Positions 42,657 through 64,000 of a DNA stretch of 64,000 nt are shown one piece after another. Positions within the stretch are counted from its first letter, which is position 1. The number at the start of each line of letters is the position of its first letter. The notes beneath the pieces are model-generated. The model saw only the letters and a program-made list of their open reading frames with translations, had not been told where the DNA came from and ran no database searches. The translations under genes were made by a program, and so were the position numbers. Source of the stretch: Thermothelomyces thermophilus ATCC 42464 (taxonomy: Eukaryota > Ascomycota > Sordariomycetes > Sordariales > Chaetomiaceae); assembly GCF_000226095.1 (NCBI RefSeq), contig NC_016472.1:8060001-8124000 (forward strand). Direction: 5' to 3'.

Positions 42657-43598
42657 TCATTCAGCCTCGAAATCCATCCCCGCCACCTCGTACAGCATCT
42701 TCACAAACTGCTCCGGCTGGTGCGCAAACCTGCCCAGGAACAGGCCGTCCACCTCGCCTCCCAACCGCCCCCACAGGCCCGGGCCCGCCGCGCCCCCGTA
42801 CACGATCCGCGTCCTCCCGGGCCGGCCCCGGACCGCCTCGCTCTCCCTCACCAGCCTCGCCACGCCTCTCACGTGCTCCGCCGAGGCCGGCTCGGGCGCC
42901 CCGATCGCCCAGACGGGCTCGTACGCCAAGATCACGTCCGCCTCGCCGTCCAGCCCGTCCAGCACCGCCTTGACCTGCCCCAGCACCTCCTCGGCCGCCG
43001 CCCGGACACCAGGGGAGACCACCTCCTCAGCTCCTGCCTCCCCGTCCGCCCGAGAATCCTGCCTCTGCGGCGGCGGCGGCGGCGGCGCGGAGACCTCGCC
43101 GACGCAGACGAGGGGGACGAGGCCGTTGCGGGCGGCGGCGGCGGCCTTGCGGCGGACGAGGTCGTCGGACTCGCCGAAGAGGCGGCGGCGCTCGGCGTGG
43201 CCGACCTCGGCGAGGCCGCAGCCGAGCTCGCGCAGGACGGCGGGGGAGACCTCACCCGTGTACGGGCCCTCGTCGGCGGCGGCGCAGTCCTGGGCGCCGA
43301 CGACGAGCCTCGCTCCGGCCCCCGCTCCGGCCCCGGCCCCGGCCTCCGCCTCGACGATGACGGCCGCCCGCGTCGCCGGGATGGACACAAAGTCGGGCGC
43401 CACGAAGGCGTCCACCCGGTCCCGCAGCAGCGCGGCCGCCCCGGGCGCCTCCCGCAGCAGCGCCAACACCGACGAGACGAAGGCGGTCGTCCGCGCGTGG
43501 CTGAAGTACATCTTTGTCGAGACCCCCACCACCGGGCGGTGGCCCGAGACGGTCGGGTACTCCCGTCTTGGTTCTGCCGAAGGTGCTGGGAAGGACAT
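42657..43598 (-). CDS. triosephosphate-isomerase paralogue (tetrulose-P isomerase candidate)
   Basis: Single exon, 313 residues, against about 250 for glycolytic TIM. The TIM-barrel isomerase signature is complete in its catalytic core: Lys29 (GVSTKMYF), His134 (VGHAERR), Glu227 (AYEPVWAIG) and the phosphate loops YGGAAGPG (267-274) and LFLGR (287-291). The usual Asn two residues before the Lys (NWK) is Ser here (STK). A Gly/Ala-rich insert (about 84-96) and a Pro-rich insert (about 170-195) add length. In bacteria, TIM-like enzymes of this divergent type (EryH/LerI) convert L-erythrulose 1-phosphate to D-erythrulose 4-phosphate. The neighbouring RpiB- and Dak-like genes support such a role here, which is inference. 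A housekeeping TIM should exist elsewhere in the genome. Confidence 0.85.
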   Translation of the reverse strand: MSFPAPSAEPRREYPTVSGHRPVVGVSTKMYFSHARTTAFVSSVLALLREAPGAAALLRDRVDAFVAPDFVSIPATRAAVIVEAEAGAGAGAGAGARLVVGAQDCAAADEGPYTGEVSPAVLRELGCGLAEVGHAERRRLFGESDDLVRRKAAAAARNGLVPLVCVGEVSAPPPPPPQRQDSRADGEAGAEEVVSPGVRAAAEEVLGQVKAVLDGLDGEADVILAYEPVWAIGAPEPASAEHVRGVARLVRESEAVRGRPGRTRIVYGGAAGPGLWGRLGGEVDGLFLGRFAHQPEQFVKMLYEVAGMDFEAE

Positions 43599-44476
43599 GC
43601 TTGGCTTTCTTTCTCTTTTGATTTAATTAATAGTTGTGTTGATTAAGAGGGAGTTAGGTTGGACGAGTTTAAAAAGAAAAGGTTAGGTCGGTGACAACGG
43701 TTGCGTTGCTTTGTTCATAATTATGTCTTCTGCCCGTCAATAAGCCGAATGGGATTGATCAGTTAATTAGAGGATGGAGGAGAAATGGTTAGCGAAAGTT
43801 GGTGTCCCCGGCGCTAAGTTGTGTCAGCTCTGTGGTTGCCAGTCACCCAATAAATGGTCAAGATTTATTGACCTTCACAGCAGCTTGGCTTCACATGGGA
43901 CGGGCCTGTATGTACTGTACATACATAACGTTCATGGAGGCGTGGCTGTAAAGTGTAGTGAAATACATACCTGCTGTACGGATAACACTGCTGGCTCAGC
44001 GAATGCGTAATGAGTTCTCCGCTGTGGAGTGCGTCCGACCGATACTCTTTCTTAACCTGATTTTGTTTAATTAACCCCAAAGCTATCCAATGCAATTGGG
44101 ACCCTGAACATGCGCCTAGTTTGCGGGGATAACATGAAAATGGAAGGCCTGAGCAGCTCATACGAGGGGCAAGTGGAGAGCTATGGAGTTTGGGACGCGG
44201 TCTGGACTAAACTTTTGAAGAATATCAATTCGGGGTTTAAGATGGATCCCTGGGAACCGGGAGGATCCGCGTTGCCACATGGAAGTCTCGGATTACCCGT
44301 TTAGGAAATATGTTGCAGGATAGCAACATGTCAGCGACAGCGACATTTCTGCTCCTTCCATTCAAGGCATCTTGAGTACCACAGCCCGGGTTCGTTTGCT
44401 CAGCACATGCCGGAGGTCCAAAAATCCCGCTCGTTCGACTTACTGCCTATGGGCATACCGTACAGTACATGTGTCC
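43599..44476. other. intergenic between TIM-like and RpiB-like genes
   Basis: About 880 bases, the promoter side of the TIM-like gene and the 3' side of the RpiB-like gene. It contains two GTAC-rich near-palindromes (about 43907-43927 and 44458-44471). Nothing else recognised. Confidence 0.4.
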
Positions 44477-45034
44477 TCAGCAGGCCCGGACCTCTTCGTG
44501 TCCAGACAACCCCCCTTCGCCCTCCTCGTACTGGTGAATGGCCGCCACCTTGGCCGCGCTGGGGCTGCTCTCGTCGAACACATATCCCAGCCACTCCTTG
44601 GCTAGCCTCCGGGCCAGCTCCAATCCCACCACTCTCTCCCCCATGCACAGGACCTGCGCGTTGTTGCTGAGAACCGCCCGCTCCACCGAGAAGCTGTCAT
44701 GTGCAGTGACCGCCCGGATGCCCTTGATCTTGTTGGCCGAGATGGCCACGCCGAGCCCGGTGCCGCAGATCAGGAGCGCTCGGTCGCATTCGCCAGACGC
44801 AACCAGCTTGGCCGCTTTGGCGGCGATGTGTGGATAGGCGGTCTTGTCGTCCGTGCCGACGTCTATCACCGATACCACGCGGTCGTCGGCCTCGAAGTCG
44901 GCCTTGATCTTGTTCTTGTAGTTGACACCCGCGTCCTGGATGTGGAATCATGAGCGCGGGAAACAAGATAACTCCTCGAGGGCTACTAAACTCACATCGC
45001 AGCCGATGGCGATTCGCCACTTTGGTACCATCAT
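44477..45034 (-). CDS. RpiB/LacAB-family sugar-phosphate isomerase
   Basis: Two exons, complement(join(44477..44935, 44996..45034)), 165 residues. The 13-codon first exon ends in IAIGCD; a 60-nt intron (GTGAGT...CCAG) joins it to [10 protein letters not shown]. RpiB features: the N-terminal GCD-DAG loop (His is usual at the second Asp), the catalytic Cys70 in [14 protein letters not shown], and [22 protein letters not shown], which forms the substrate pocket across the dimer. RpiB enzymes interconvert aldose and ketose 5-phosphates, and a bacterial branch (EryI/DerI) makes D-erythrose 4-phosphate from D-erythrulose 4-phosphate. The first ATG of two adjacent ones (45034, 45031) was taken as the start. 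It shares a divergent promoter with the Dak-like kinase, suggesting co-regulation. Confidence 0.85.
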
Positions 45035-45553
45035 GTTGTCAGGAAAATGGTGAGGCTTCGAGCAAAATAAATCGGACCCCTCGCAGTAGCTGCCAGCGCA
45101 AGGAAATCGAAAGAAGAATGCCATTCCCCTGTCTTTAAGATGGCATGGGGGGAGGACCGGCATTTATCCAGGGCGCCATTCCGTTCCCGGTATTCCGGCA
45201 ATCCCAAGAACCGTCAGGGTGGCAGCCGGATATTATTCCTGGGGGACGGATCGAGACCGTCTTGCATTGCCCTGCGTTGCCCCTCCCCGTGTGACCACGA
45301 GTGTACCCCCGGCCCCGCCCTTGCGCCAAGTATGCCATTGGTGTTGCTTAAAGGTAGCTGCGTCACAGCCTTGGGGGGTGAAGCTGGGGGGGGACCCCAA
45401 GGAGGCCAGTAGTTTATCTCTGGCTTTATTTTTCTCATTGAGCGGGCCACAACTCGGGCTTCCCTCAGAGCTGCTCCTCCCAGTTCTCGCTTGTCCCCTA
45501 GGGCTCGACACTGAAGCCACGTAATTAACCCTCTACATATCACCACCCACAAC
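45035..45553. promoter_or_regulatory. shared divergent promoter, RpiB-like / Dak-like
   Basis: 519 bases between the two start codons. A CCGG-TATT-CCGG inverted repeat lies at about 45187-45198. Zn2Cys6 regulators bind CGG/CCG half sites, so this is a candidate, but GC-rich DNA makes it weak. Confidence 0.35.
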
Positions 45554-47350
45554 ATGTCCAACCGACACCTCTTCCCGACCCTCGATGGGCTCGTGCCCAA
45601 AGCTCTGCGTGGCATCGTGGCCAGCAACCCTCGCCTCAACCTCGACGAGACCAACCGCGTCATCTACGACCCGTCTTCCTCGCCTTCCAATGTCAGCATC
45701 ATCAGCGGAGGCGGCTCCGGCCACGAGCCGGCATGGTCAGGGTACGTGGGCGCCAACATGCTCTCGGCAGCCGTGGCCGGGGACGTGTTTGCCTCGCCAA
45801 GCACGAAGCAAATCCTGGCAGCCGTCGACGCGGTGCCCTCAGATAAGGGCACCCTGCTGGTCATCACCAACTACACAGGCGACTGCCTCCACTTTGGCCT
45901 CGCTGCTGAGAAAACAAAGGCCAAGGGCAAGGCGTGCCGGTTGCTGATCTGCGGCGATGACGTCTCGATCGGCAAGAAGGGAGGATCGCTGGTTGGCCGG
46001 CGCGGCCTCGCTGGACAGATCGGCGTGCTCAAGATCCTCGGTGCCGCCGCCGCAGAGGGAGCGTCTCTCGACGAGCTCTACGACCTAGGCACCGCCGTCA
46101 ACAGCCAGATCGTCAGCATCGCTGCGACCCTCGACCACTGCCACGTCCCTGGGCGAACCGAGCACGGTGCCTTGCAGGAGGACGAAGTCGAGATTGGTAC
46201 GGGGCCACACAATGAGCCGGGATACAGGAAGCTGACGCCAGCGCCCACGGCTGAGGGGCTGGTGAAAGAGATCCTAAAGTACTGCCTGGACGAGACAGAC
46301 CCGGAACGGGGCTACGTCAATTTCAAGGCCGGGGACGAGACCGCGCTGCTCGTCAGCAACTTTGGCGGCATGTCAAATCTGGAGTTGGGCGGGCTTGTCG
46401 ACGAGCTTCTCCAACAACTCCTGAAGGACTGGAACATCCAGCCGGTCCGAGTGTACGCCGGGTGCCTGGAAACGTCCCTCAATGCGCCGGCCTTCTCCGT
46501 CTCCATCTTCAACCTCTCCGGAATCGCCGCCAACAGCGCCTACTCCCTGGAGCAGATCAAGGGCTTCCTCGACCTCAAGACGGACACCGCGTGGGAAGCT
46601 GTCGCCGGGGCCCAGAGCTATCCGCAGAGACGTCCCCGGGCAGAGCAGCTGGTCCAGGCGCCGTCGGCGGAGTCCAAGAAGGCCGTGGACGACGCGAGGG
46701 ATGTCAAGGTCGACCCCGCGCTGCTGGAGAGGATGCTGCGCGGGGCTTGCGAGGCGGTCATCGCGGCGGAGCCCGACCTGACGCGGTGGGATACCGTCAT
46801 GGGCGACGGAGACTGCGGCCTCACGCTCAAGACGGGCGCGACCGCGCTGCTCGACGCCATCGGCAGCAAGAAGATCGCGGCCCGGGGTTCCGTGGTCGAG
46901 GTGCTGGCCGAGCTGGAGGAGATCGTCGAGGGCAAGATGGGCGGCACCCTGGGCGGCATCCTGGGCATATTCTTCGTGTCGCTGCGGGCGGCCGTGCAGG
47001 AGAACAGCGCGCTGGCCGAGGCGGAAGGCCCCGTCGCCGTGTGGTCCAGGGCGCTGGAAACCGCCGTCCAGCACCTCGCGCACTACACCCCGGCCAAGGC
47101 GGGCGATCGCACCGTCATGGACACGCTGATTCCGTTTGCGGAGGCGATGGGGGCGAAGCAGAGCTTTGAGGAAGGCGTCGCGGCGGCCGTGAGCGGAGCG
47201 GAGGCGACCAAGACCATGAGGCCGAGACTCGGACGGGCGACTTACGTCGGTGTTGGTGCTGAAGGAAAGGAGCTGCCTCCGGATCCTGGTGCCTGGGGCG
47301 CCATGGTGGCCATCAGGGGACTGAAGACAGCCATCATTAGTAATTATTAA
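45554..47350 (+). CDS. dihydroxyacetone/erythrulose-type kinase (DhaK-DhaL)
   Basis: Single exon, 598 residues, normal for single-chain eukaryotic Dak. The DhaK half (about 1-330) has the GGGSGHEPAWSGYVG loop and the His that forms a hemiaminal with the ketose carbonyl (GPHNEPG, about His219), after the conserved DHCHVPGR. The DhaL half (about 385-590) has the MGDGDCGLTLKTG metal/ATP loop (Asp418, Asp420) and HYTPAKAGDRTVMD near the end. Such kinases phosphorylate dihydroxyacetone or glyceraldehyde; close relatives (LerK/DerK type) use L- or D-erythrulose. Location is cytosolic by lack of signals. Placement between RpiB- and aldolase-type genes points to sugar catabolism rather than only DHA detoxification. 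The substrate cannot be decided from sequence. Confidence 0.9.
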   Translation: MSNRHLFPTLDGLVPKALRGIVASNPRLNLDETNRVIYDPSSSPSNVSIISGGGSGHEPAWSGYVGANMLSAAVAGDVFASPSTKQILAAVDAVPSDKGTLLVITNYTGDCLHFGLAAEKTKAKGKACRLLICGDDVSIGKKGGSLVGRRGLAGQIGVLKILGAAAAEGASLDELYDLGTAVNSQIVSIAATLDHCHVPGRTEHGALQEDEVEIGTGPHNEPGYRKLTPAPTAEGLVKEILKYCLDETDPERGYVNFKAGDETALLVSNFGGMSNLELGGLVDELLQQLLKDWNIQPVRVYAGCLETSLNAPAFSVSIFNLSGIAANSAYSLEQIKGFLDLKTDTAWEAVAGAQSYPQRRPRAEQLVQAPSAESKKAVDDARDVKVDPALLERMLRGACEAVIAAEPDLTRWDTVMGDGDCGLTLKTGATALLDAIGSKKIAARGSVVEVLAELEEIVEGKMGGTLGGILGIFFVSLRAAVQENSALAEAEGPVAVWSRALETAVQHLAHYTPAKAGDRTVMDTLIPFAEAMGAKQSFEEGVAAAVSGAEATKTMRPRLGRATYVGVGAEGKELPPDPGAWGAMVAIRGLKTAIISNY

Positions 47351-47781
47351 GGTAGGAAAGTGCCTTGGGATGATTGAGGGAATCAATTCACGGAGGAGAG
47401 AGGGTCGGTCGGCAGTACCGTGTTGTTGTAATTAATCATTCTAGATCGTGACTTTTTCATACTTTTGCCAGTATTAAGGTATTTTCGAGTGTTGGGTTTT
47501 TACCATGGTTTGGGGCTTGCAGGAATTATTCCATTGGCACTTGTGATTTCAAGTTGGAGAAACCGCTCGCAAGGTCAGATGTGTTCCTTCCTCAATAATT
47601 ACTTCGCACACCTACCTTACTTATCTAGTCCATCATACCGCGGGTATCTCGGAAAGTGCAGGAAGCATGGTAGGAAAAAATAATTATTCATCACAGAAAT
47701 CAAAAATCGAAATTTTGTTCTTCTTTATTTTCATTAATTTTTTTTTCCTCTCCCGGCATTTCTCTCCTTACAGCCAGCCCA
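47351..47781. other. intergenic, convergent 3' ends
   Basis: About 430 bases, AT-rich relative to neighbours, between the convergent Dak-like and aldolase genes. It should hold both terminators; nothing else seen. Confidence 0.5.
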
Positions 47782-48648
47782 TCAAGCCTTCCCGGCGCTC
47801 CCAAGCCACACCGCGTAGCGCTCAATGGCCTTCTGCATCGCGTCGGTGCCCGCCTCGATGACGCGGGTCAGCGGCTTCCCCATCATCTCCTGCTGCACGC
47901 GCGCATAGTGGTTGTTCATGCCCTTGTTGATGTTGACCTTGGTCACCCCGGCGGCCATGCACTTGCGGAAGATGTCCTCGTCGAACGGGTCAGCGCCGTG
48001 CAGCACGAGCCGCACCCGGTCGCCGACGCGCTCGTTGATGGCCCGCAGCCGGTCGTACTCGAGCTGGATCCCGCGCGGGCCGTACTCGCCGTGCACGTTG
48101 CCAAACGCCGGCGCGAGCATGTCGATCCCCGTCTTGACGAACTCCTCGGCCTCGTCGGGCGTGGTCAGCAGGCCCTCCAGGTCCGCCGTCTCGGCCACGC
48201 CGTCCTCGCCGCCCTCGATCCGCCCCGGCTCCGCCTCGGCGGCGATGCCCCGCTCGTGGCAGTACTTGACCAGCTCGGCCGTCAGCCGCAGGTTCTCCTC
48301 CTTGTCGTAGTGGCTCATGTCGCACATGATGCTGTCGAACCCGTCCTCGATGTCGGCCGCCCGCCGCACCAGCTCGGGCGTCTGGCAGTGGTCGAGGTGC
48401 AGCGACACGGGCACCGACGCCGAGTGGGCCGCCGAGGCGGCCGCCTTGACCAGCGCCTCGCCCGCGTACTCGATCGCCCAGGGAAAGAGCAGGACCATGG
48501 CCGGCGACCGGGCAGCCTCGGCAGCCCGGACGGTCGCAATGATGGACTCGATGTTGTAGCAGCACATGGCGGGGACCGCGTAGCCGCCCTCTTTGGCGGC
48601 GTTGAGTATCGCCATGGTGCGGTTCTGCGCGAGGGGTGGGCGCGGCAT
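47782..48648 (-). CDS. class II ketose-phosphate aldolase
   Basis: Single exon, 288 residues, typical of the GatY/KbaY/Fba class II family. Zinc and catalytic positions are present: Asp86-His87 (HLDHCQT), Asp110 and His113 (CDMSH), Glu138/Glu140 (AEAEPGRIEGG), His186 (GNVHGEYG) and His217 (LVLHGAD). The phosphate-binding loop that normally follows the last His (HGGSG) reads HGADPFDED, so substrate phosphate recognition probably differs from fructose- or tagatose-bisphosphate aldolases. Such enzymes split ketose phosphates to dihydroxyacetone phosphate plus an aldehyde. In this neighbourhood a C4 or C5 ketose or tetronate-derived phosphate is plausible (inference). It is divergent from the dehydrogenase gene. 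Confidence 0.88.
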   Translation of the reverse strand: MPRPPLAQNRTMAILNAAKEGGYAVPAMCCYNIESIIATVRAAEAARSPAMVLLFPWAIEYAGEALVKAAASAAHSASVPVSLHLDHCQTPELVRRAADIEDGFDSIMCDMSHYDKEENLRLTAELVKYCHERGIAAEAEPGRIEGGEDGVAETADLEGLLTTPDEAEEFVKTGIDMLAPAFGNVHGEYGPRGIQLEYDRLRAINERVGDRVRLVLHGADPFDEDIFRKCMAAGVTKVNINKGMNNHYARVQQEMMGKPLTRVIEAGTDAMQKAIERYAVWLGSAGKA

Positions 48649-49504
48649 GTTGGCGGTTATCGGCGGTTTCGGCGGTTTCGGCCGGATCTTGTCTATTTGG
48701 TAGATTGGCAGATGTGGTGCGCAAGAGGGAGTTGAAGATGATGCCGGTTGACTCCGAGATGGTTGGATGGCGATGGGTCAGGTCAATGGCCAATGGAAAC
48801 CAATTACTGCCTCCTTGCGTACGCCCAATGTCAGACGGCCTTCTCGTAGTTAAGATTACCCGACTCGCGGCCGACTGCCAGGCCGAGTTAATACCTCAAA
48901 CTGCAAAAAGCCTTAAACCGCTTGTGAACCGGTCGGCAGATGTCGTCGAGGAGCTCACAAGATTGTACATAATTACATACTCGGATTCCCCGATCGGGAT
49001 GTGCCCGCCCCCACGCAGGAGTGCCAAGGAGCTACGGCGGGAACTTGTTGCGCTTGAGTTTAGCCGGAATACGCGGTTGGCACGGTGGGGTGATTAAGTA
49101 ACGTCATCATTGGCCCCCCTTGCCAATGAGGGGCATCACGAGCTGTCGAGGGGAGTAGTGTAGAATTCACTGATGCGGGGGGGCGATTGGCATCCTGGTG
49201 ATCGAAAGCCCCCTTTTCAGTTCACCCGACCGGCCAGCCGGCCGGCGGTATCGGCATGAGTGATGAAGAAGTGAGTGAGTGTGTCGGGCTCGGCACCTTT
49301 GCTTTGCCGAGTGCTGCCCGCCCGCTGGAATCTGTTTTGAATCATGTATGTATGTTCTCAAGGGCTTGACCACCGAAGACGAGAGGGCATCTCTGGTGTT
49401 TTGCTCATCTCGGGGATTCAGGGGCCGAGTCCACCAAACAAACAAACAAAACCAAACAAACCGCTTTGTCCACCCGTATCCGCAACAAGAGGTCTCAATA
49501 AGCC
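48649..49504. promoter_or_regulatory. shared divergent promoter, aldolase / dehydrogenase
   Basis: 856 bases between start codons. It includes a GCCGGAATAC stretch (49063-49072) that also occurs in reverse in the RpiB/Dak promoter (45190-45199), and an AAAC microsatellite-like run in the dehydrogenase leader (about 49436-49460). The motif sharing is near chance level. Confidence 0.35.
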
Positions 49505-50851
49505 ATGGCCGAGCCTAAACCTCCCATTGCCTTCATCGGCCTCGGCGCCATGGGCTTCGGCATGGCCACCCACCTGGTCAAGCAGGGCTACCCGGTGACG
49601 GGCTTCGACGTCTGGGCGCCCACCCTCGAGCGCTTCGCGGCCGCGGGCGGGCTCACGGCCAGCACGCCCTCGGCTGCCGTCGCCGACAAGCCCTTCTGCG
49701 TCTGCATGGTGGCCACGGCGCAGCAGGCCCAGTCGGTGCTCATCGACGGGCCCGACGCGGCCGTCCACGCCCTCCCCAAGGGTGCCGCCCTGCTCCTCTG
49801 CTCCACGGTCCCCTGCGACTACGTGCAGTCGCTCGACCGGCAGCTGCGCAGCCTCGGGCGCGGCGACATCCTCCTCGTGGACAGCCCCGTGTCGGGCGGC
49901 GCGGCGCGGGCGGCTGACGGCACCCTGTCCATCATGGCGGGCATGTCGGACGCGGCGCTAGACAAGGCGCGCCCGCTGCTGGCCGAGATGGCGGACCCGG
50001 CTAAGCTGTACATTGTGCAGGGCGGCGTCGGCGCCGGGAGCAACATGAAGATGGTGCATCAGGTGCTGGCGGCGTGCCACATCCTCGCCTCGAGCGAGGC
50101 CGTGGGGTTCGCGGCGCGGCTGGGCCTGGACCTGGCCCAGACGCAGAAGGCGGTGCTCGGATCGGACGCGTGGAACTGGATGTTTGAGCACCGCACGCCG
50201 CGGATGCTGACGCAGTTCCAGCCCGTCGCCAGCGCCGTCAACATCATCGTCAAGGACACCAAGATCATTACGGCAGAGGCGAAGAGGAGCGGCTTCAAGG
50301 TGCCGATGACGGGGAGGGCCGAGGAAGGTTACCAGCAGGCCGTCGACAAGGGCTACGGGCAGGACGACGATAGCAGCCTGCTGAGGCTGTACACCGGGGC
50401 AGGGAGCGGCGAGACCGGAGAGAGTTCGGCAGAGGCGGACGAGGAGAAGCTGGCATTGGTGCTCGACTTGCTTAGGGGGATCAACCTGTGCGCGGCTGGA
50501 GAGTCTCTGGCGTTTGCTAGCTTCGTGGGCTTGGATCTCGACCAGGTGCTCGATCTGTGCGTAAATGCGGCCGGATCAAGCACCATGTTGAAGCAGTACG
50601 GTCCTCAGTTCATCACCGCTCTCCGCCAGGGCGTCGACTCCAGGAGCTCAAAGGCTGCCGAGGGAGAGCTGAGCCTCGACGCCGTCGCCGAGAGGCTGCA
50701 GAGGGTTGTAGAGGAGGCTGAGCGGGTCAAGGTGCCGCTGTTCTTGGGATCGCGGGCGTTGGACGTCGTTCGCGAAGCCCTGAAGCTCGGAACATCGCCG
50801 CTATCTGTCAATGCGGTGGTGAATGTTTGGGCTACGCTATCATCGCAATAG
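49505..50851 (+). CDS. beta-hydroxyacid dehydrogenase, LtnD/6PGDH superfamily
   Basis: Single exon, 448 residues. The N-terminal Rossmann domain starts FIGLGAMGFGMA (GxGxMG, residues 12-17). The substrate loop DSPVSGG is at 126-132 and the catalytic Lys is Lys182 in GSNMKMVHQ. These are hallmarks of 3-hydroxyisobutyrate, tartronate-semialdehyde and L-threonate dehydrogenases. The chain is about 150 residues longer than the usual 290-300, and the extra part (about 315-448) looks like a second all-helical C-terminal domain. It oxidises a beta-hydroxyacid with NAD(P). Given the kinase/aldolase neighbours, L-threonate or D-erythronate is a reasonable candidate substrate, which is inference. In some fungi I recall relatives fused to kinase and aldolase modules; here it stands alone. 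Confidence 0.85.
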   Translation: MAEPKPPIAFIGLGAMGFGMATHLVKQGYPVTGFDVWAPTLERFAAAGGLTASTPSAAVADKPFCVCMVATAQQAQSVLIDGPDAAVHALPKGAALLLCSTVPCDYVQSLDRQLRSLGRGDILLVDSPVSGGAARAADGTLSIMAGMSDAALDKARPLLAEMADPAKLYIVQGGVGAGSNMKMVHQVLAACHILASSEAVGFAARLGLDLAQTQKAVLGSDAWNWMFEHRTPRMLTQFQPVASAVNIIVKDTKIITAEAKRSGFKVPMTGRAEEGYQQAVDKGYGQDDDSSLLRLYTGAGSGETGESSAEADEEKLALVLDLLRGINLCAAGESLAFASFVGLDLDQVLDLCVNAAGSSTMLKQYGPQFITALRQGVDSRSSKAAEGELSLDAVAERLQRVVEEAERVKVPLFLGSRALDVVREALKLGTSPLSVNAVVNVWATLSSQ

Positions 50852-51390: not shown

Positions 51391-52455
51391 ATGGAGAAGA
51401 GTATTCGGCCTCACTTCTTCAAGCACGGGCTCCCAGAGGTACAGGAAGAGAACGTCTGACCTGCGATCATCAGACTCCTAACCTCTTTTTGCCAGTCAGA
51501 CCCAGAGGAGGAAAAGAACTGCCACTGGTGCCAGATCCGCTCCTTTGCTACTCACAAAACCATACCAATTACAATAGTCAACGACGAAGACGACGAGGTA
51601 CTGAACCCCAACTTCCGCTTCATCGACCATTCTGTCATTGCCGACGATGTGCCGGTCGCCGAGGACTCCTTTCGGACCGGCTGTGACTGTGCCGACGACG
51701 AGGACTGTATGTACAACACGTGCCAGTGCCTCGACGAGATGGCGCCCGACAGCGACGAGGACGAGAACGACGGCTCCGCTACCCGGCCGCGGCGGAAGCG
51801 GTTTGCGTACTACTCGAGCGGACCCAAGGCCGGCTTGCTGAGGAGTAGGATCCTCATGAGCCGCGAACCCATCTATGAATGCCACGAAGGCTGCAGCTGC
51901 TCGCTCAATTGTCCGAATCGGGTCGTGGAGCGAGGCAGGACGGTGCCGCTGCAGATTTTCCGGACCCCGGATCGGGGCTGGGGCGTCAGATGTCCCGTCG
52001 ACATCAAGGAAGGCCAGTTCGTCGACAAGTACCTGGGCGAGATCATTTCGAGCCGGGAGGCGGACAGGCGGCGGGCGGAAGCGACCGTCTCCCGCCGCAA
52101 GGACGTGTACCTCTTCGCGCTCGACAAGTTCTCGGACCCGAACTCGCTCGACCCCTTGCTAGCAGCGCCGCCGCTCGAGGTGGACGGGGAGTGGATGAGC
52201 GGCCCTACACGGTTTATCAACCACAGCTGCGATCCGAACATGCGCATCTTTGCGCGCGTCGGCGACCACGCTGACAAGCACATCCACGACCTGGCTCTGT
52301 TTGCGATTCGGGATATCCCCGCGGGAGAGGAACTGACATTTGACTATGTCGACGGCTTGGAGGATATGGACAACGATGCACACGACCCGTCCAAGATCAA
52401 GGACATGACGGTCTGCAAGTGCGGGACCAAGCGGTGCCGAGGCTTCCTGTGGTGA
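51391..52455 (+). CDS. dim-5: histone H3 lysine-9 methyltransferase DIM-5
   Basis: Two exons: join(51391..51438, 51496..52455), 335 residues. Exon 1 encodes MEKSIRPHFFKHGLPE; the 57-nt intron ends CCAG after a CTAAC branch point; exon 2 starts SDPEEEKNCHWC. A Cys-rich pre-SET zinc cluster (CDCADDEDCMYNTCQC, then CHEGCSCSLNCPN), the SET domain with the cofactor/knot motif NHSCDPN (from residue 258) and FDYV (from 298), and a Cys-rich post-SET end (CKCGTKRCRG) are all present. The Phe before the DY corresponds to the Neurospora residue that permits trimethylation. DIM-5 puts H3K9me3 on RIP-mutated DNA, which directs DNA methylation via HP1 and DIM-2. It fits the RIP-damaged island in this window. 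Confidence 0.95.
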
Positions 52456-53616: not shown

Positions 53617-54841
53617 ATGGTACGATTCCTTGGCTCTCTTTTTTTCTCCGGTTTTCTGCAAATGCCCGCCAAGCGGCTTCGGTGTCACGATGCGCTGCGG
53701 CGGACAATCTTCGCGCGTTCAAAGAGTTCCAACTGCTGCCCTCACTTCCCAATGCCTATTATCCTTCATATGTTTTCTGAGTTAGCAACCCCCTCCGCAA
53801 TCGGCCGTGCATGCTGACGATGTATAGGGCTGCTGTCTTTCCCGAGACGACAGCGCAAACTCGCCTTACCCAGGCGGCGCTGCCACTGGCTCTGGCCGAG
53901 CAATCAACGAGGCTGCCCCAGCAGCCGGGGCGTCCAGCTCGCAAACCGGCGTCGACGAGCCTCTCCCCTCGGGGTCCCGGCACCGGCGCAGGCATTCCCA
54001 TCAACCACTAGACCAGCACATCAACAAGCCCTTGCGGCGGCACGAATGGACCAGCCATGACCGGCGTTGGACACCGGCGGCCTTGCGGAGGGAACGGGCC
54101 GAGTTCTTTGACACGCGGGTGACCGGGAGACAAGAGATATGGCAAGCTATCCGTGCGGCGTTGGAGGTTCTGTGGGCTGCCGACGAGGCGGCCCGCACTG
54201 GCAGGTATCGCCGGATGAGCGAGGATGGGGGGCCGAGCGAGGAAGACCCGGACGTGGCTCTGGCAACAGCACAGAGCATAATCGACGCGGCCGATATCAC
54301 GCTGCCCACCGGCGACTTGTACAACGGAGCGTATGACGCGTTTGGCAACTTCTACCAGCTGAATCACCAGGTCGTCTCGGATCCGTCCAACCTGGTATGG
54401 AGTCCTGACTCGGCCGAGGAAGATGATGTCGACGACGGCAAAGCCGATCTGACAGCCGACGAAGAGACGGAGCGTGAGTGTGGCGACGACGAGGCTGAGC
54501 GGCGGCGCGAGGAGAAGGGCAAGGCCGTCGTGGATATCCGGAATCAGATCACGGTTCGGGCAAGGCTCAGCGACGGGTCTCGGGACGTCTGCGTCGCGGT
54601 GGACAAAGGGGACTCCGTCCGGCGTGTCGCCAGGGCTGTCGCAGAGAAGGCAAAGGTGAGCAGGACATGGTGACCGAGAGCGAGAGCTGTGCATTGCTGA
54701 CAGTGGACCGACCAAAAGCTCGATTCCACCAAGAAAATACGCATCGCATACATGGGCAAGATTCTCCACGAGAATTCTTCCCTGGTGGATCAAGGCTGGA
54801 AGCAAGGACATGTCGTCAATGCCTTGGTGTTCGATCGTTAG
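53617..54841 (+). CDS. UBTD-type ubiquitin-like domain protein
   Basis: Three exons: join(53617..53619, 53828..54655, 54719..54841), 317 residues. The first coding exon is just ATG; its intron (GTACGA..., branch CTGAC, TATAG) joins it to GGCTGCTGT, giving MGCCLSRDD. That is a classic Gly2 myristoylation plus Cys3/Cys4 palmitoylation signal, so membrane attachment is likely. The UBTD/DC-UbP core follows: NKPLRRHEW, FFDTRVTGRQEIWQAI, DAADITLPTGDLYNGAYDAFGNFYQL. A C-terminal ubiquitin-like fold spans exon 2-3 (VRARLSDGS ... KIRIAYMGKIL ... GHVVNALVF). UBTD proteins bind E2 enzymes and modulate ubiquitin transfer in animals; the fungal role is not known. The 63-nt second intron has a GCTGAC branch point. 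Confidence 0.88.
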
Positions 54842-56059: not shown

Positions 56060-57567
56060 TCAGTCTTGGCTGCGCCGCTTCTTCTTCTCCTTCTTGTCGC
56101 CCCGCCACGAGCCGCTGAAGAGGTGCCTGACCAGGGCATCGGGCGGGATGGTGCCGTCGTTGGTGCTCTCGGAGTGGGGCTGGCCCATGCCGAAGCCGTC
56201 GATGGGCAGTACGACGACGTCGCCGTAGAGGCGGGGCTCGTCCATGTAGGAGAGGTTCCTGATGTCGGTGAGGGAGCTGTCGAACTCCTGCAGCTGGGCC
56301 CAGACGACGTCGGTCCAGGCGGCCGGGCCGGTCGAGTTCATGACCTCGAAGCTGCCGAGCTTCTTGAGCTCGGAGAAGGGCATGCCGTGCTCGAGCTCGA
56401 GCTGGTGCAGCGAGTAGAGGACGCGCTCGATCATCTTGTCGAAGACGGGGTGGCCGGGCGCGGCGGCGATGGTCCACTGGCAGAACTGGACCCAGTGCGA
56501 GATGTCGACCCAGGCGGGGCCGTCGCGCCGGTCGAACTCGATGCCCACCACCACGGCCGCCTTGTCGCGGAACTGGGGCGGGATCCACTCGTCGATGGGC
56601 CGCAGCGCGACCGTGTCCGTGTCGGTGTAGACGCCCCCCTCGGCCGAGAGCAGCAGGTACCGCAGCAGGTCCGACTTCATGCCCACGTTGGGCATGTGCA
56701 GGTACGCATCGAGAATGCGGGGGTCGTGCCCAAAGTGCTTGCGCACAAACTCCTCGCCACCCTTGTGGCCCACGAGCGTGCTGTGAGGGAGAGTTAGTTA
56801 AATCATCTTTTTTTTGTTCTTCTTTCCATCCTTCCATCCATCCATCTACCCATCCTTCCTTCCTTCCTTCCTTCTTTTCTTTATTTTTTTCCATTCCCTT
56901 TTGTATGACAAAACCTCCCAAGAAGAGGTTGTTTGCCGCAGACCGCGGGGTTGATCCGTTTGTTCGGGGGTAGAGTGAGGGTGAGAGGGAAAGATGGTTT
57001 TGCCTACTATTGATAGTCCAGGTTCAGGGCCAGCCAAGAGGGTGTTTCAGACAGAACCTTGGGATCGGCGATGAAATCCTCCTTGGACTTGACGTCGCTT
57101 TTGGGCAGCATGATCTGCCAGATCTTGGGGGGAATTCCGGGCGCCACCTTAACCGCCTCGGTCTCGGTCGGCTGATGCGCATTGTCGCCGGCCTTTGTGC
57201 TGGGTTCCTGGGTGGTCGTCGGGGCGACCTGGGGTTCCGAGTCCGTCTGTGTCGAGGTGGTGATGGTGGTTACGGGGGCGGGGTCCGGGGCCTTCTGGTC
57301 CCCGTTCTCGCCGTCTGCGCCCTGAGCAACATTGCCGGCGCCGGTGTGGTCACCAGCATGAGCGGGCGGCAACGGGGCCTTCGGTCGTGGCACGTACGAA
57401 GTCAGGTCCAAGCCGGTAGCCAAGCCACCGTAGATGAAGGTGAGGGCGGCGAACAGCACGAGGGCGATGGCGATGACGCCGTAGAACCTTTGCCGGCGAC
57501 GGGTAACATGGTGCAGCAGCTGCGCCGGCAACGAGGAACTTGCTACCTCATTCGGATGTTGTGACAT
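56060..57567 (-). CDS. GT32 OCH1-like mannosyltransferase
   Basis: Two exons, complement(join(56060..56780, 57008..57567)), 426 residues. The intron (227 nt) has donor GTAGGC, a TAACTAAC branch point and a CACAG acceptor; joining gives DYQYTLVGHKGG. The N-terminal cytosolic tail RRRQRFYG precedes one signal-anchor helix (VIAIALVLFAALTFIYGGL), then a Pro/Thr-rich stem. The catalytic domain begins at IPPKIWQIM and contains VGMKSDLLRYLLL and the metal/nucleotide DxD motif in GGVYTDTDTVALRP. These define the GT32 family, whose fungal members include initiation-specific alpha-1,6-mannosyltransferase Och1, acting in the Golgi on N-glycans. Paralogues with other linkages are common, so the precise reaction is uncertain. 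Confidence 0.9.
56821..56877. repeat. CCTT/CCAT tetranucleotide microsatellite
   Basis: CCAT and CCTT repeats on the plus strand, lying wholly inside the intron of the GT32 gene and partly responsible for that intron's large size. Confidence 0.8.
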
Positions 57568-61177: not shown

Positions 61178-64000
61178 TCAAGCAACAACGGAGCCAATCT
61201 TGTTCAGCCCTTTGAGCGAGCCGAGACTGAGCGCCAGACCCTGCGACCTGCTGCGTATCCTGAGGAAACCAGTGATCGGGCCATCTTCGCCCTCCTTCTC
61301 GATGCTCAGGTTGGCCAAAGCGTCCTCGCCTAAGGAAGAGTTAGCGATCCCCACAACCCAGGCTGCAAATAGATCAGAGAAAGACATACCGAACACGCTC
61401 CTGGCATACAGATTCGCGCTCAGGAATTGGCAGTCGCCCTTCATGCTCGCTTCCGGCGTCAGACAGTTCATGTTGGTGCACGCCATGAGCTGGTCCAAAA
61501 AGTCGCGTAGCGACTTGGCTTTGCTGTTGATGTTGACCTTGTTCTCCCACTCAAACTCGGTCCACATGGTGCGGAACTGCGTCTCGGAGCAGGTCGCCGG
61601 CTGGATGTAATCCATGATGTCCACGTGAAGGTCGTTTAGGATGACTACATTGGTATCGGTCGAGTGGGCACCCTCATAGACGACGTTGCCAAAGATGACG
61701 CCCGTGTCGGTCGACGACACCTTGATGGTGCACTGTACGTTCTGGAAGTCGTGCGGGCCAAGGTTCTGGCTCGTGGGCCGCTCCACCACCTTGAGGTCAC
61801 CCAACGTGGCAAACTCCACGGTAAGGTTTTGTAGTGTGTCGGTGGTTTGGTTGACGAGGAGCACATCCAGGATGATATCGAACTGGTGAACTTTGACGTA
61901 CGCTTCAGCATAGACGGGATCTGAGAAACCGGTAAGCTGGACAACACGGCTGAGCTTGCTCGACAGATCCTCGGAAGCACTGCTATCACCGCCCGTTGCC
62001 CGCTCCAAGTCGAGCTCGATGGCGTCAGCCCCGTCAACCGCGTTCTTCTTGGACAGCTGACGGATCGCAACCACGTCATCGACCTGCACTGCGGTCTTGG
62101 CCTTCTCGAACGCCTCCTTTGCTGCGCGCTTCTTCTCCTCAACCTGCACCATTGCTCGGAAGGCCTTCCTCGTGTCCTCGAGGTACACCGTCTCCAGCTG
62201 CTTGTGCTCCTTGAACTCGGCCAGCGACCGCACGCAGCTCATGATCCGGTCCACCGAATCCTCGTCGATGGGTGCCTTGACAAACTGTGACTGACCAACG
62301 CGGATGATGGAGATCATGATAAGCATGGCCTCGGCCCGCAGAGCATTGGTCCGGGCTTCTTCCGAGGAGATCTCAGAGTGGCGCATAACGAGCTTGGTAA
62401 GCGTGGCAGCAAGAACAGTCGCAAGATAGTAATCCCCGTCCAAGATGAGCTGCCTGAGTGGAGGCTTAGACGATGCCTTGACAGCCTCTAGCCGCGCAGC
62501 CGCAGCGGACTGACTTGTGAGGGCGGTTTCGGTGGCATACGTCCCGTCAGCGAGGACCTTCCGGGAGCCTCCAGGATTGGGCTTAGGATGCCCGTTGACC
62601 TGCTCTTCGCCCTTGTTCTCTTCCTCATTGTCCATGTTGTCCAGCAGTCTCTGCTCAGACGCCAGAATGGGTATTTCGCCAAGGCTGGCCCGGATACCCT
62701 TCCAGGCATCCCGAATATCCTTTTCGTCCAGCGAGTACTCGCCGATGATCCACAGGATGCCGCGGTAGACCTTGCCAGCCCTCACTTCCCGGAGAGTATC
62801 GACCAGTCTTTGCGAAATGGCTGGCCGTAGCGATGGGAACTTCTCAACCACCTCCTTGACAAAATTGATAACGTCGACAGCCGAGGCGTTGTTGAAGTCC
62901 GCAATGAAGTCCATGAGCAGGTCTACCACGCTGGCAGCGACCTCCGAGAATTTGACAGCGCACTGGTGGATGGAGTGGATGAGCAGCTGGCGGTACTCGT
63001 TATTCTTCTCGTACTCCTGGTCGACAGTCTTGGACAGTTCCTTCTTGAGAAGGAGCACCACTTCCTCCACGTTCTTGCTCGAAATCATCTCCAGCGCAAT
63101 ATCCAGGGCTTTCTTGCGCACATCAATATCGGTGCTTGAGAGGACGCGCAGGATCTCCATGATGAGGTCGTCAAGGATGCCCTCATTCTTCTGGCGCAGC
63201 TGGTCGACACGGTCGAGCACAATAAGCTTAACGTTATTGTCGGCCTCCTTGATCGCAAGTTCGATGAACTTGGCGGCAGCGGCTTTGACGGCCACGGGGT
63301 TGTTGGTGAGTGCTGTGAGAGATGACGCTGCTTCATAAACCACTGTGGACGTGTTCGCTTCGAGCAGGTCGAAGATGAGCCGCAGGTAGCGCGCCTTGTT
63401 CTGCGAGTTTTGGATGGCATCTTTCCTGATAAACTCGAGCTCAACCAGCTGCAGAAGCTCCTCAGCGTTCGGAATACCGTCGAAGACGGTGCTGAGGTAG
63501 GCAAGCGCTTTCTCGTGGCTAATGCTAGAGAGGGCAGCGAAGCCGTTCCTCTTACATGTTGGGTCGCTCTCTCCTTCAAGGAACGTGGCAATGAGCTCGG
63601 GGGCGTCGGGAATCAGCGATGGCGAGTGTTGGTAGATGGAAGCTACCGCAAAGACTGCGTTCTTGCGCACGTAGGCATGGCGGTGTTCGAGACACAACCG
63701 GGCCGAGGAGAGGAGAGGCTCGAGGAGCTCGGGTTCCCTGAGTTTGCAGAGGAAGCGCAACGTATTGCCCCTGATAAACTCGTTCGGATGTTGGAGGTCA
63801 TTACGGATGCCGTTACTGCGGAGGCTGGTCAGCTAATGGCAAAATCTCTTTGGGCCAGAAAAAGAGAGAAAAGAAAGAGGCGGCCTTACCATACTAGGAT
63901 GAACTCTTGCTTTAGCTTCCCCTGAGCATCGAGCTTAGGGCAGATTTCGTAATAAAAGTAAAGCAGCTTCTTGAGGGGCTTGGACTTGGAGGGCATGACG
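61178..64000 (-). CDS. sec26: coatomer (COPI) beta subunit Sec26, N-terminus cut off
   Basis: Three exons visible: complement(join(61178..61329, 61390..63815, 63890..>64000)); the 5' end lies outside the window. The first visible exon reads MPSKSKPLKKLLYFYYEICP; a 74-nt intron with a CTGAC branch point joins ILVCNGIRNDLQHPNEFIRG. HEAT/adaptin-like repeats follow (RFLCKLREPELLEPLL, HAYVRKNAVFAVASIYQ), then an acidic linker (NEEENKGEEQ) and the appendage domain ending RIRSRSQGLALSLGSLKGLNKIG. Beta-COP is part of the F-subcomplex that coats Golgi-to-ER vesicles. The last intron (61330..61389) is 60 nt, a multiple of three, and has no stop in frame, so the exons look fused in a plain translation. 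GTATGT donor, GCTAAC branch and TTAG acceptor support it. Confidence 0.93.

Follow-up and report, generated by a model that had tools for sequence, protein, structure and literature searches.

Which substrate would a filamentous fungus degrade with a triosephosphate isomerase (TIM)-like enzyme, an RpiB-like isomerase, a DhaK-DhaL kinase (DAK), a class II aldolase, and an LtnD-like hydroxyacid dehydrogenase, all encoded side by side? The question is raised by five adjacent genes spanning 8.2 kb of the genome of Thermothelomyces thermophilus ATCC 42464. They lie in a 64,000-nucleotide stretch of contig NC_016472.1 (positions 8,060,001 to 8,124,000 of the forward strand; here called the window). 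An earlier note, made from the sequence alone, had assigned the five identities, pointed to two divergent gene pairs, and proposed a role in four-carbon sugar catabolism. Gene calls from open reading frames and Pfam profile searches agree with the five identities and with both divergent pairs (Table 1). On balance, we favor the view that the locus is a conserved cluster with which filamentous fungi break down four-carbon units, composed of a tetrulose core and an acid-sugar front end.

Gene grouping and conservation in other fungi

Profile searches of the T. thermophilus genome recovered one RpiB locus, two TIM, two Dak1, two F_bP_aldolase, and three NAD_binding_11 loci, counts that are lower bounds for the large families. 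TIM-like, DAK, and class II aldolase genes thus each have one additional locus elsewhere in the genome. Because each family is sparse, the grouping of the five genes within 8.2 kb is not due to chance; by a crude estimate, the probability of finding one copy of every other family within 16 kb of the sole RpiB gene is about 7e-13.

The earlier note had named a lack of conserved synteny among the grounds for refuting its proposal, but linkage is kept in related Sordariomycetes, as judged from tag distances and shared contigs. We compared locus tags and contigs among the best 120 rows from each of three protein searches (LtnD, aldolase, and TIM). Among the matches listed, LtnD and aldolase tags are adjacent in six of six genomes with apparently sequential tags (Thermothelomyces myriococcoides, T. 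fergusii, Humicola hyalothermophila, Chaetomium olivicolor, Mycothermus thermophilus, and Thyridium curvatum). The aldolase and TIM tags are exactly 3 apart in five of five (T. myriococcoides, C. olivicolor, M. thermophilus, Sporothrix bragantina, and S. curviconia), and the LtnD and TIM tags exactly 4 apart in five of five (T. myriococcoides, C. olivicolor, Thermocarpiscus australiensis, and two Mycothermus assemblies). The order by tags is therefore LtnD–aldolase–(two genes)–TIM in Sordariales and aldolase–(two genes)–TIM in Sporothrix, and these fixed distances leave space for two genes and no more, the positions that DAK and RpiB occupy in T. thermophilus. The placement of those two genes in other fungi was taken from the tag gaps and from three public gene models (P0265, P0267, and P0276) that join RpiB to TIM, which makes the two genes neighbors in those genomes. 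Two pairs with apparently nonsequential tags (C8A00DRAFT 13916/42309 and M434DRAFT 37971/86382) share contigs but are uninformative as to order and were left out of the tag counts.

Contigs were recognized as shared by identical size. With the T. thermophilus contig counted, LtnD and aldolase share at least 26 contigs, LtnD and TIM at least 22, aldolase and TIM at least 21, and all three at least 10; when sizes were jittered by 5% as a null, coincidences averaged 0.26 in total. On contigs shorter than 150 kb, the corresponding counts are at least 11, 11, 5, and 4. Shared contigs alone (e.g., Biscogniauxia 348040 and Hypomontagnella 300164) suggest linkage in genomes that we take to belong to the Xylariales. 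No five-gene cluster of this kind in a filamentous fungus is described in the titles and abstract openings that we surveyed, a coverage that most subscription papers fall outside. Excerpts of PMC10935855, PMC10733421, PMC5557077, and PMC8532513 were also drawn on.

A candidate tetrulose core

Across 24 fungal TIM-like sequences, H134 and E227 are invariant and K29 is nearly so. We take these residues to be the catalytic Lys, His, and Glu of triosephosphate isomerase chemistry, and the TIM-like protein carries all three. Its GHAERRR motif is present in all four bacterial TIMs encoded with a DAK (loci L017, L020, L021, and L022), as is GLFLGRFAH or a close form of it, whereas the rhizobial-type Shinella protein (L023) and the solved L-erythrulose-1-phosphate isomerase (PDB 11ef) read GHSERRE. 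Because GHAERRR occurs in every one of the DAK-linked TIMs and is absent from the latter two proteins, the TIM-like protein is, by its motif, of the DAK-linked kind; the label LerI is unproven for it. The public model of this gene (P0242, 290 amino acids [aa]) omits a 69-base in-frame stretch of the reading frame (43026-43094, minus strand), and a Thermothelomyces heterothallicus model has 312 aa; the stretch is a possible intron.

The spliced RpiB aligns across its intron junction with PDB 3qd5 and scores 186.3 bits against TIGR02133 (cutoff, 168.2), a model named for ribose-5-phosphate isomerase. In the alignment, it has neither the ring-opening histidine nor the positively charged phosphate pocket of ordinary RpiB enzymes, and an RpiA is encoded elsewhere in the same genome. 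Excerpts of PMC3212906 describe a relative from Coccidioides immitis with an altered phosphate site and no ring-opening histidine, in which S replaces the histidine and D occupies an H/N site; its melting temperature was unaffected by ribose-5-phosphate, and the authors suspect a shorter substrate. All five of the Coccidioides residues (Asp17, Arg105, Ser109, Ser145, and Lys148) are matched in the T. thermophilus protein.

The same protein is 69%, 67%, and 65% identical to DAK-adjacent actinobacterial RpiBs from Streptomyces (L018) and Arthrobacter (L020 and L017), respectively, and 44 to 48% identical to those of enterobacterial and rhizobial loci. Such closeness to actinobacterial proteins is not the rule: the RpiB of Streptomyces L019, a locus in which tblastn found none of the other four genes, reaches 59%, and further Streptomyces plasmid RpiBs reach 50 to 51%. 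Judged by percent identities alone, the RpiB may have come from bacteria, which would give the cluster a mixed history. The L019 gene, from Streptomyces violaceusniger (L019:9995-10465), adjoins an aminotransferase, a radical SAM gene, and a glycosyltransferase, a setting that looks biosynthetic, not catabolic.

The kinase scores 712.8 bits against the glycerone kinase model TIGR02361 (cutoff, 574.95) and is 43.2% identical to PDB 26vk, 41.6% to the other DAK of the genome, and 27 to 29% to bacterial operon kinases. A precedent for the core exists in Yarrowia lipolytica, for which excerpts of PMC5992420 describe TIM-like, DAK (EYK1), and RpiB (EYI1) genes that lie together and are induced on erythritol, with deletion of EYI1 impairing erythritol use. 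Together with the RpiB residues and identities and the DAK-linked TIM motif, this core supports the conversion of erythrulose through erythrulose phosphate to D-erythrose-4-phosphate, the route that the earlier note had put forward from bacterial enzymes, as the best reading of the three genes; it is well supported and partly known.

The aldolase and the dehydrogenase

The closest solved chain to the aldolase is PDB 3pm6 (401.6 bits). Residues D86, H87, H186, H217, and D220 are invariant in 21 fungal sequences aligned to 1gvf; D86, H87, H186, and H217 are presumably the catalytic Asp and the metal-binding His residues expected of a class II ketose-bisphosphate aldolase. What we take to be the phosphate-binding loop of this class (HGAS, followed by an N-x-x-T type motif) is not preserved: the fungal enzyme reads HGAD and NINKGM, whereas HGAS is found in 1gvf and in the aldolases of two bacterial loci, L025 and L026. 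Because the usual phosphate-loop serine is missing, the fungal protein is probably not a normal ketose-bisphosphate aldolase. A close bacterial origin was considered for this gene and rejected: a prokaryote genome scan with two peptide patterns returned 20 stretches, with one distant relative at 30%, and the best 15 of 408 plasmid records reached at most 37.3% identity.

The LtnD-like protein matches an annotated T. thermophilus protein at 100% identity. It has a Rossmann domain followed by a duplicated helical domain, the arrangement of the 6-phosphogluconate dehydrogenase (6PGDH) fold. It scores 276.3 against NF043037, short of the curated cutoff of 350, which is weak evidence given that the model was built for prokaryotes. 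The earlier note had pointed out that an LtnD-type dehydrogenase and an aldolase serve threonate use in bacteria. The ordinary L-threonate route LtnD-OtnI-OtnK is unlikely and was set aside because a genome search for the DUF1537 kinase (PF07005) gave 0 matches, with 3 of 14 control genomes positive. The PGDH_C profile found no match in the T. thermophilus genome and none in the control genomes either.

Proposed pathway and competing explanations

In the pathway that we infer, reaction by reaction and in this order, DAK would phosphorylate a tetrulose, most likely L-erythrulose, to erythrulose-1-phosphate; the TIM-like enzyme would shift the carbonyl to give D-erythrulose-4-phosphate; and the RpiB-like enzyme would convert this to D-erythrose-4-phosphate, feeding the pentose phosphate pathway. 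Less certain is the unphosphorylated acid-sugar front end that we also infer, in which the LtnD-like dehydrogenase would oxidize a hydroxy sugar acid and the metal aldolase would break or decarboxylate the resulting oxo-acid before phosphorylation, releasing a ketose for the kinase. A more specific version is tentative and rather doubtful: the 6PGDH-shaped LtnD and the aldolase without phosphate binding would convert an unphosphorylated five-carbon sugar acid (apionate derived from the apiose of plants is one example) to erythrulose and CO2 ahead of the kinase. The parts of such a pathway would be an RpiB of actinobacterial type, a DAK of the kind native to the fungus, and an aldolase whose subfamily gave no close prokaryotic relative in our searches.

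It is possible, if less than probable, that the locus encodes a plain erythritol/erythrulose pathway of the Yarrowia kind, with the polyol dehydrogenase, transporter, and regulator located elsewhere and the LtnD-like dehydrogenase and aldolase in side jobs. The three-gene core and the DAK/RpiB divergence match what excerpts report for Yarrowia, and in Arthrobacter L017 a sugar ABC transporter and two alcohol dehydrogenases accompany DAK-RpiB-TIM. A further fungus of interest here is Trichoderma reesei, which we take to be a Sordariomycete. Erythritol is consumed by T. reesei, according to an excerpt of PMC11210129. The fungal cluster, however, is without a polyol dehydrogenase, and side jobs would not explain the contigs that the TIM-like gene has in common with LtnD (at least 22) and with the aldolase (at least 21). 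Unlikely, in our estimation, is a chance meeting of two unrelated modules, DAK-RpiB-TIM for tetruloses and LtnD-aldolase for a four-carbon acid such as threonate or erythronate. The bacterial loci compared mostly keep these sets apart, with LtnD standing without DAK, RpiB, and TIM at L024 to L027, the reverse holding at L017, L020, L021, and L022, and RpiB and TIM present at L023; yet the sampled fungi hold the aldolase and LtnD at a fixed distance from TIM, and Streptomyces L018 combines LtnD with DAK-RpiB. A salvage route for dihydroxyacetone or glyceraldehyde, in which DAK would form dihydroxyacetone phosphate, TIM would interconvert the triose phosphates, and the aldolase would condense them, would suit the glycerone kinase score of DAK. 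We regard it as very improbable: RpiB would have no role, the phosphate loop of the aldolase is changed, and the genome has another TIM, DAK, and class II aldolase outside the cluster.

Several observations weigh against the proposed combination of a tetrulose core with an acid-sugar front end. The TIM-like protein scores about as well against an ordinary TIM (PDB 9quu, 104.6 bits) as against 11ef (105.9 bits), whose GHSERRE differs from the GHAERRR of the fungal family, and the RpiB scores 143.3 against the rhizobial DerI model, below its cutoff of 240. Erythrulose and dihydroxyacetone kinases are not separable by DAK sequence, and an assignment of kinase specificity on that basis was dropped. 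By tblastn, no TIM-like gene was found in the 20.4 kb of Streptomyces L018, nor were DAK, RpiB, or TIM genes found at the LtnD loci L024, L025, L026, and L027; in L026, the LtnD-type gene lies approximately 6 kb from the aldolase on the opposite strand. Among the fungi, a common megabase contig is no proof of closeness, and the DAK and RpiB positions are deduced from tag gaps and three merged models.

The cluster ties the solved, placeholder-named proteins PDB 3qd5 (RpiB), 3s6d (TIM), and 3pm6 (aldolase), the latter two presumably of fungal source, to one conserved gene set. The proposed pathway also suggests a substrate for an RpiB that its crystallographers left unassigned, offers a reason for an RpiB alongside RpiA in T. 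thermophilus, and indicates a possible route from C4-C5 compounds to central metabolism in a biomass-degrading, heat-loving fungus. The divergent aldolase and the dehydrogenase are worth assaying.

Gene layout, promoters, and flanking genes

Table 1. Features of the five-gene locus (positions are those of the window)
Feature	Position	Strand	Details
TIM-like isomerase	42657..43598	-	313 aa (290 aa in public model); PF00121 TIM, 154.6 bits
CTCGGATTACCCG, possible shared regulator site	44287..44299	+	motif CTCGGATTMCCCG
RpiB-like isomerase	44477..45034	-	two exons, 165 aa; LacAB_rpiB PF02502 at 44477-44878, 129.6 bits
RpiB intron	44936..44995	-	60 bases, GT..AG, frame preserved
Divergent RpiB/DAK promoter region	45035..45553	.	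519 bp separating the start codons
DhaK-DhaL kinase, candidate erythrulose kinase	45554..47350	+	598 aa; Dak1 331.1 bits, Dak2 129.6 bits
Divergent class II aldolase	47782..48648	-	288 aa; F_bP_aldolase PF01116, 298.5 bits
Divergent aldolase/LtnD promoter region	48649..49504	.	856 bp separating the start codons
CTCGGATTCCCCG, second copy of the motif	48980..48992	+	motif CTCGGATTMCCCG
LtnD-like beta-hydroxyacid dehydrogenase, second helical domain	49505..50851	+	448 aa; NAD_binding_2, NAD_binding_11

The motif CTCGGATTMCCCG, which was picked post hoc, occurs 3 times in the 38.7-Mb genome, twice in the cluster at a spacing of 4.7 kb; a control pattern occurs once. It is not found in the RpiB/DAK promoter, and k-mer sharing among the promoters is within the range of shuffled sequences (six 7-mers against a mean of 4.67 and a maximum of 13; one 8-mer against a mean of 0.28 and a maximum of 3). 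The motif contains CGGAT, an element that excerpted literature reports for targets of Yarrowia Euf1.

The earlier note had seen no transporter or regulator near the genes, and a Pfam scan of 20 of the 43 flanking open stretches of at least 110 aa likewise revealed none, although genes with short exons could escape it; with the same limit, no Yarrowia-type erythritol dehydrogenase or EUF1-type regulator was found in these stretches or among the five genes. No family was assigned to 16 of the 20 stretches, and the other four are two glycosyltransferases, a coatomer beta, and a ubiquitin-binding protein. Unrelated neighbors include a ubiquitin-binding domain (53828-54670, plus strand), a DXD-type glycosyltransferase (56063-56797, minus strand), and coatomer beta (61181-63832, minus strand). 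Directly downstream of LtnD lies dim-5, an H3K9 methyltransferase (51391-52455, plus strand; 562.3 bits to PDB 1ml9). LtnD is fused to dim-5 in six public models among those listed (P0001, P0020, P0046, P0048, P0049, and P0072), which may be annotation errors across a conserved neighborhood or occasional joint splicing.

Comparison with known systems

Named bacterial tetrulose modules are LerK-LerI-DerI and EryH/EryI. The fungal locus resembles bacterial DAK-RpiB-TIM loci in having the same three families, an RpiB close to three actinobacterial copies, and a GHAERRR motif shared with four loci. Unlike in those modules, the fungal kinase is nearer to its own genome's other DAK and to 26vk than to the operon kinases, and solved LerI (11ef) and Shinella L023 are without the fungal TIM motif. 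Arthrobacter L017 and L020 have a TIM-like gene alongside DAK-RpiB; at L017, these three are accompanied by genes for a first and a second alcohol dehydrogenase, a sugar ABC transporter, and a DeoR regulator. In Streptomyces L018, DAK-RpiB is joined by LtnD and a GntP permease. A conjugative plasmid of Klebsiella variicola (L021) groups genes for DAK, RpiB, a TIM-like enzyme, transketolase, and transaldolase.

Acid-sugar loci offer the second comparison. L024 is an LtnD-OtnI-OtnK locus, and L025 (Arthrobacter) and L026 (Rhodococcus) each hold an LtnD-type dehydrogenase, a DUF1537 kinase, and a class II aldolase. The fungal dehydrogenase is 34 to 42% identical to those of the three loci, and the fungal aldolase is 34 to 35% identical to those of L025 and L026. 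Unlike these loci, the fungal genome has no DUF1537 kinase match, its aldolase reads HGAD for HGAS, and its LtnD has an extra helical domain. In Azoarcus L027, LtnD has genes for transketolase and a TRAP transporter nearby but none of the other four cluster genes. Erwinia L022, which resembles D-apionate catabolism, is like the fungal cluster in placing DAK, TIM, and RpiB with a dehydrogenase that might supply their substrate; unlike in the fungal cluster, this dehydrogenase is of the PGDH_C type and comes with an AP_endonuc_2 barrel, and we read the two as ApnO and OiaC.

The nearest fungal system is that of Yarrowia, whose cluster members, as listed in excerpts, are EUF1, the TIM-like YALI0F01584g, EYK1 (DAK), EYI1 (RpiB), and EYD1, with DAK and RpiB sharing one intergenic promoter region (YALI0F01628g/YALI0F01606g). 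In T. thermophilus, DAK, TIM-like, and RpiB genes are clustered too, and DAK and RpiB are again divergent. Unlike in Yarrowia, where gene numbers place TIM next to DAK, the T. thermophilus TIM adjoins RpiB, and no EYD1 or EUF1 is seen beside the cluster. The earlier note had called the five-gene arrangement foreign to the textbook picture of fungi. Because the Yarrowia erythritol cluster already has DAK, TIM-like, and RpiB genes (excerpts of PMC5992420), this no longer applies to three of the five, which are not a new arrangement. New relative to Yarrowia are an LtnD-like dehydrogenase, 6PGDH-like in its fold, and a class II aldolase of divergent sequence.

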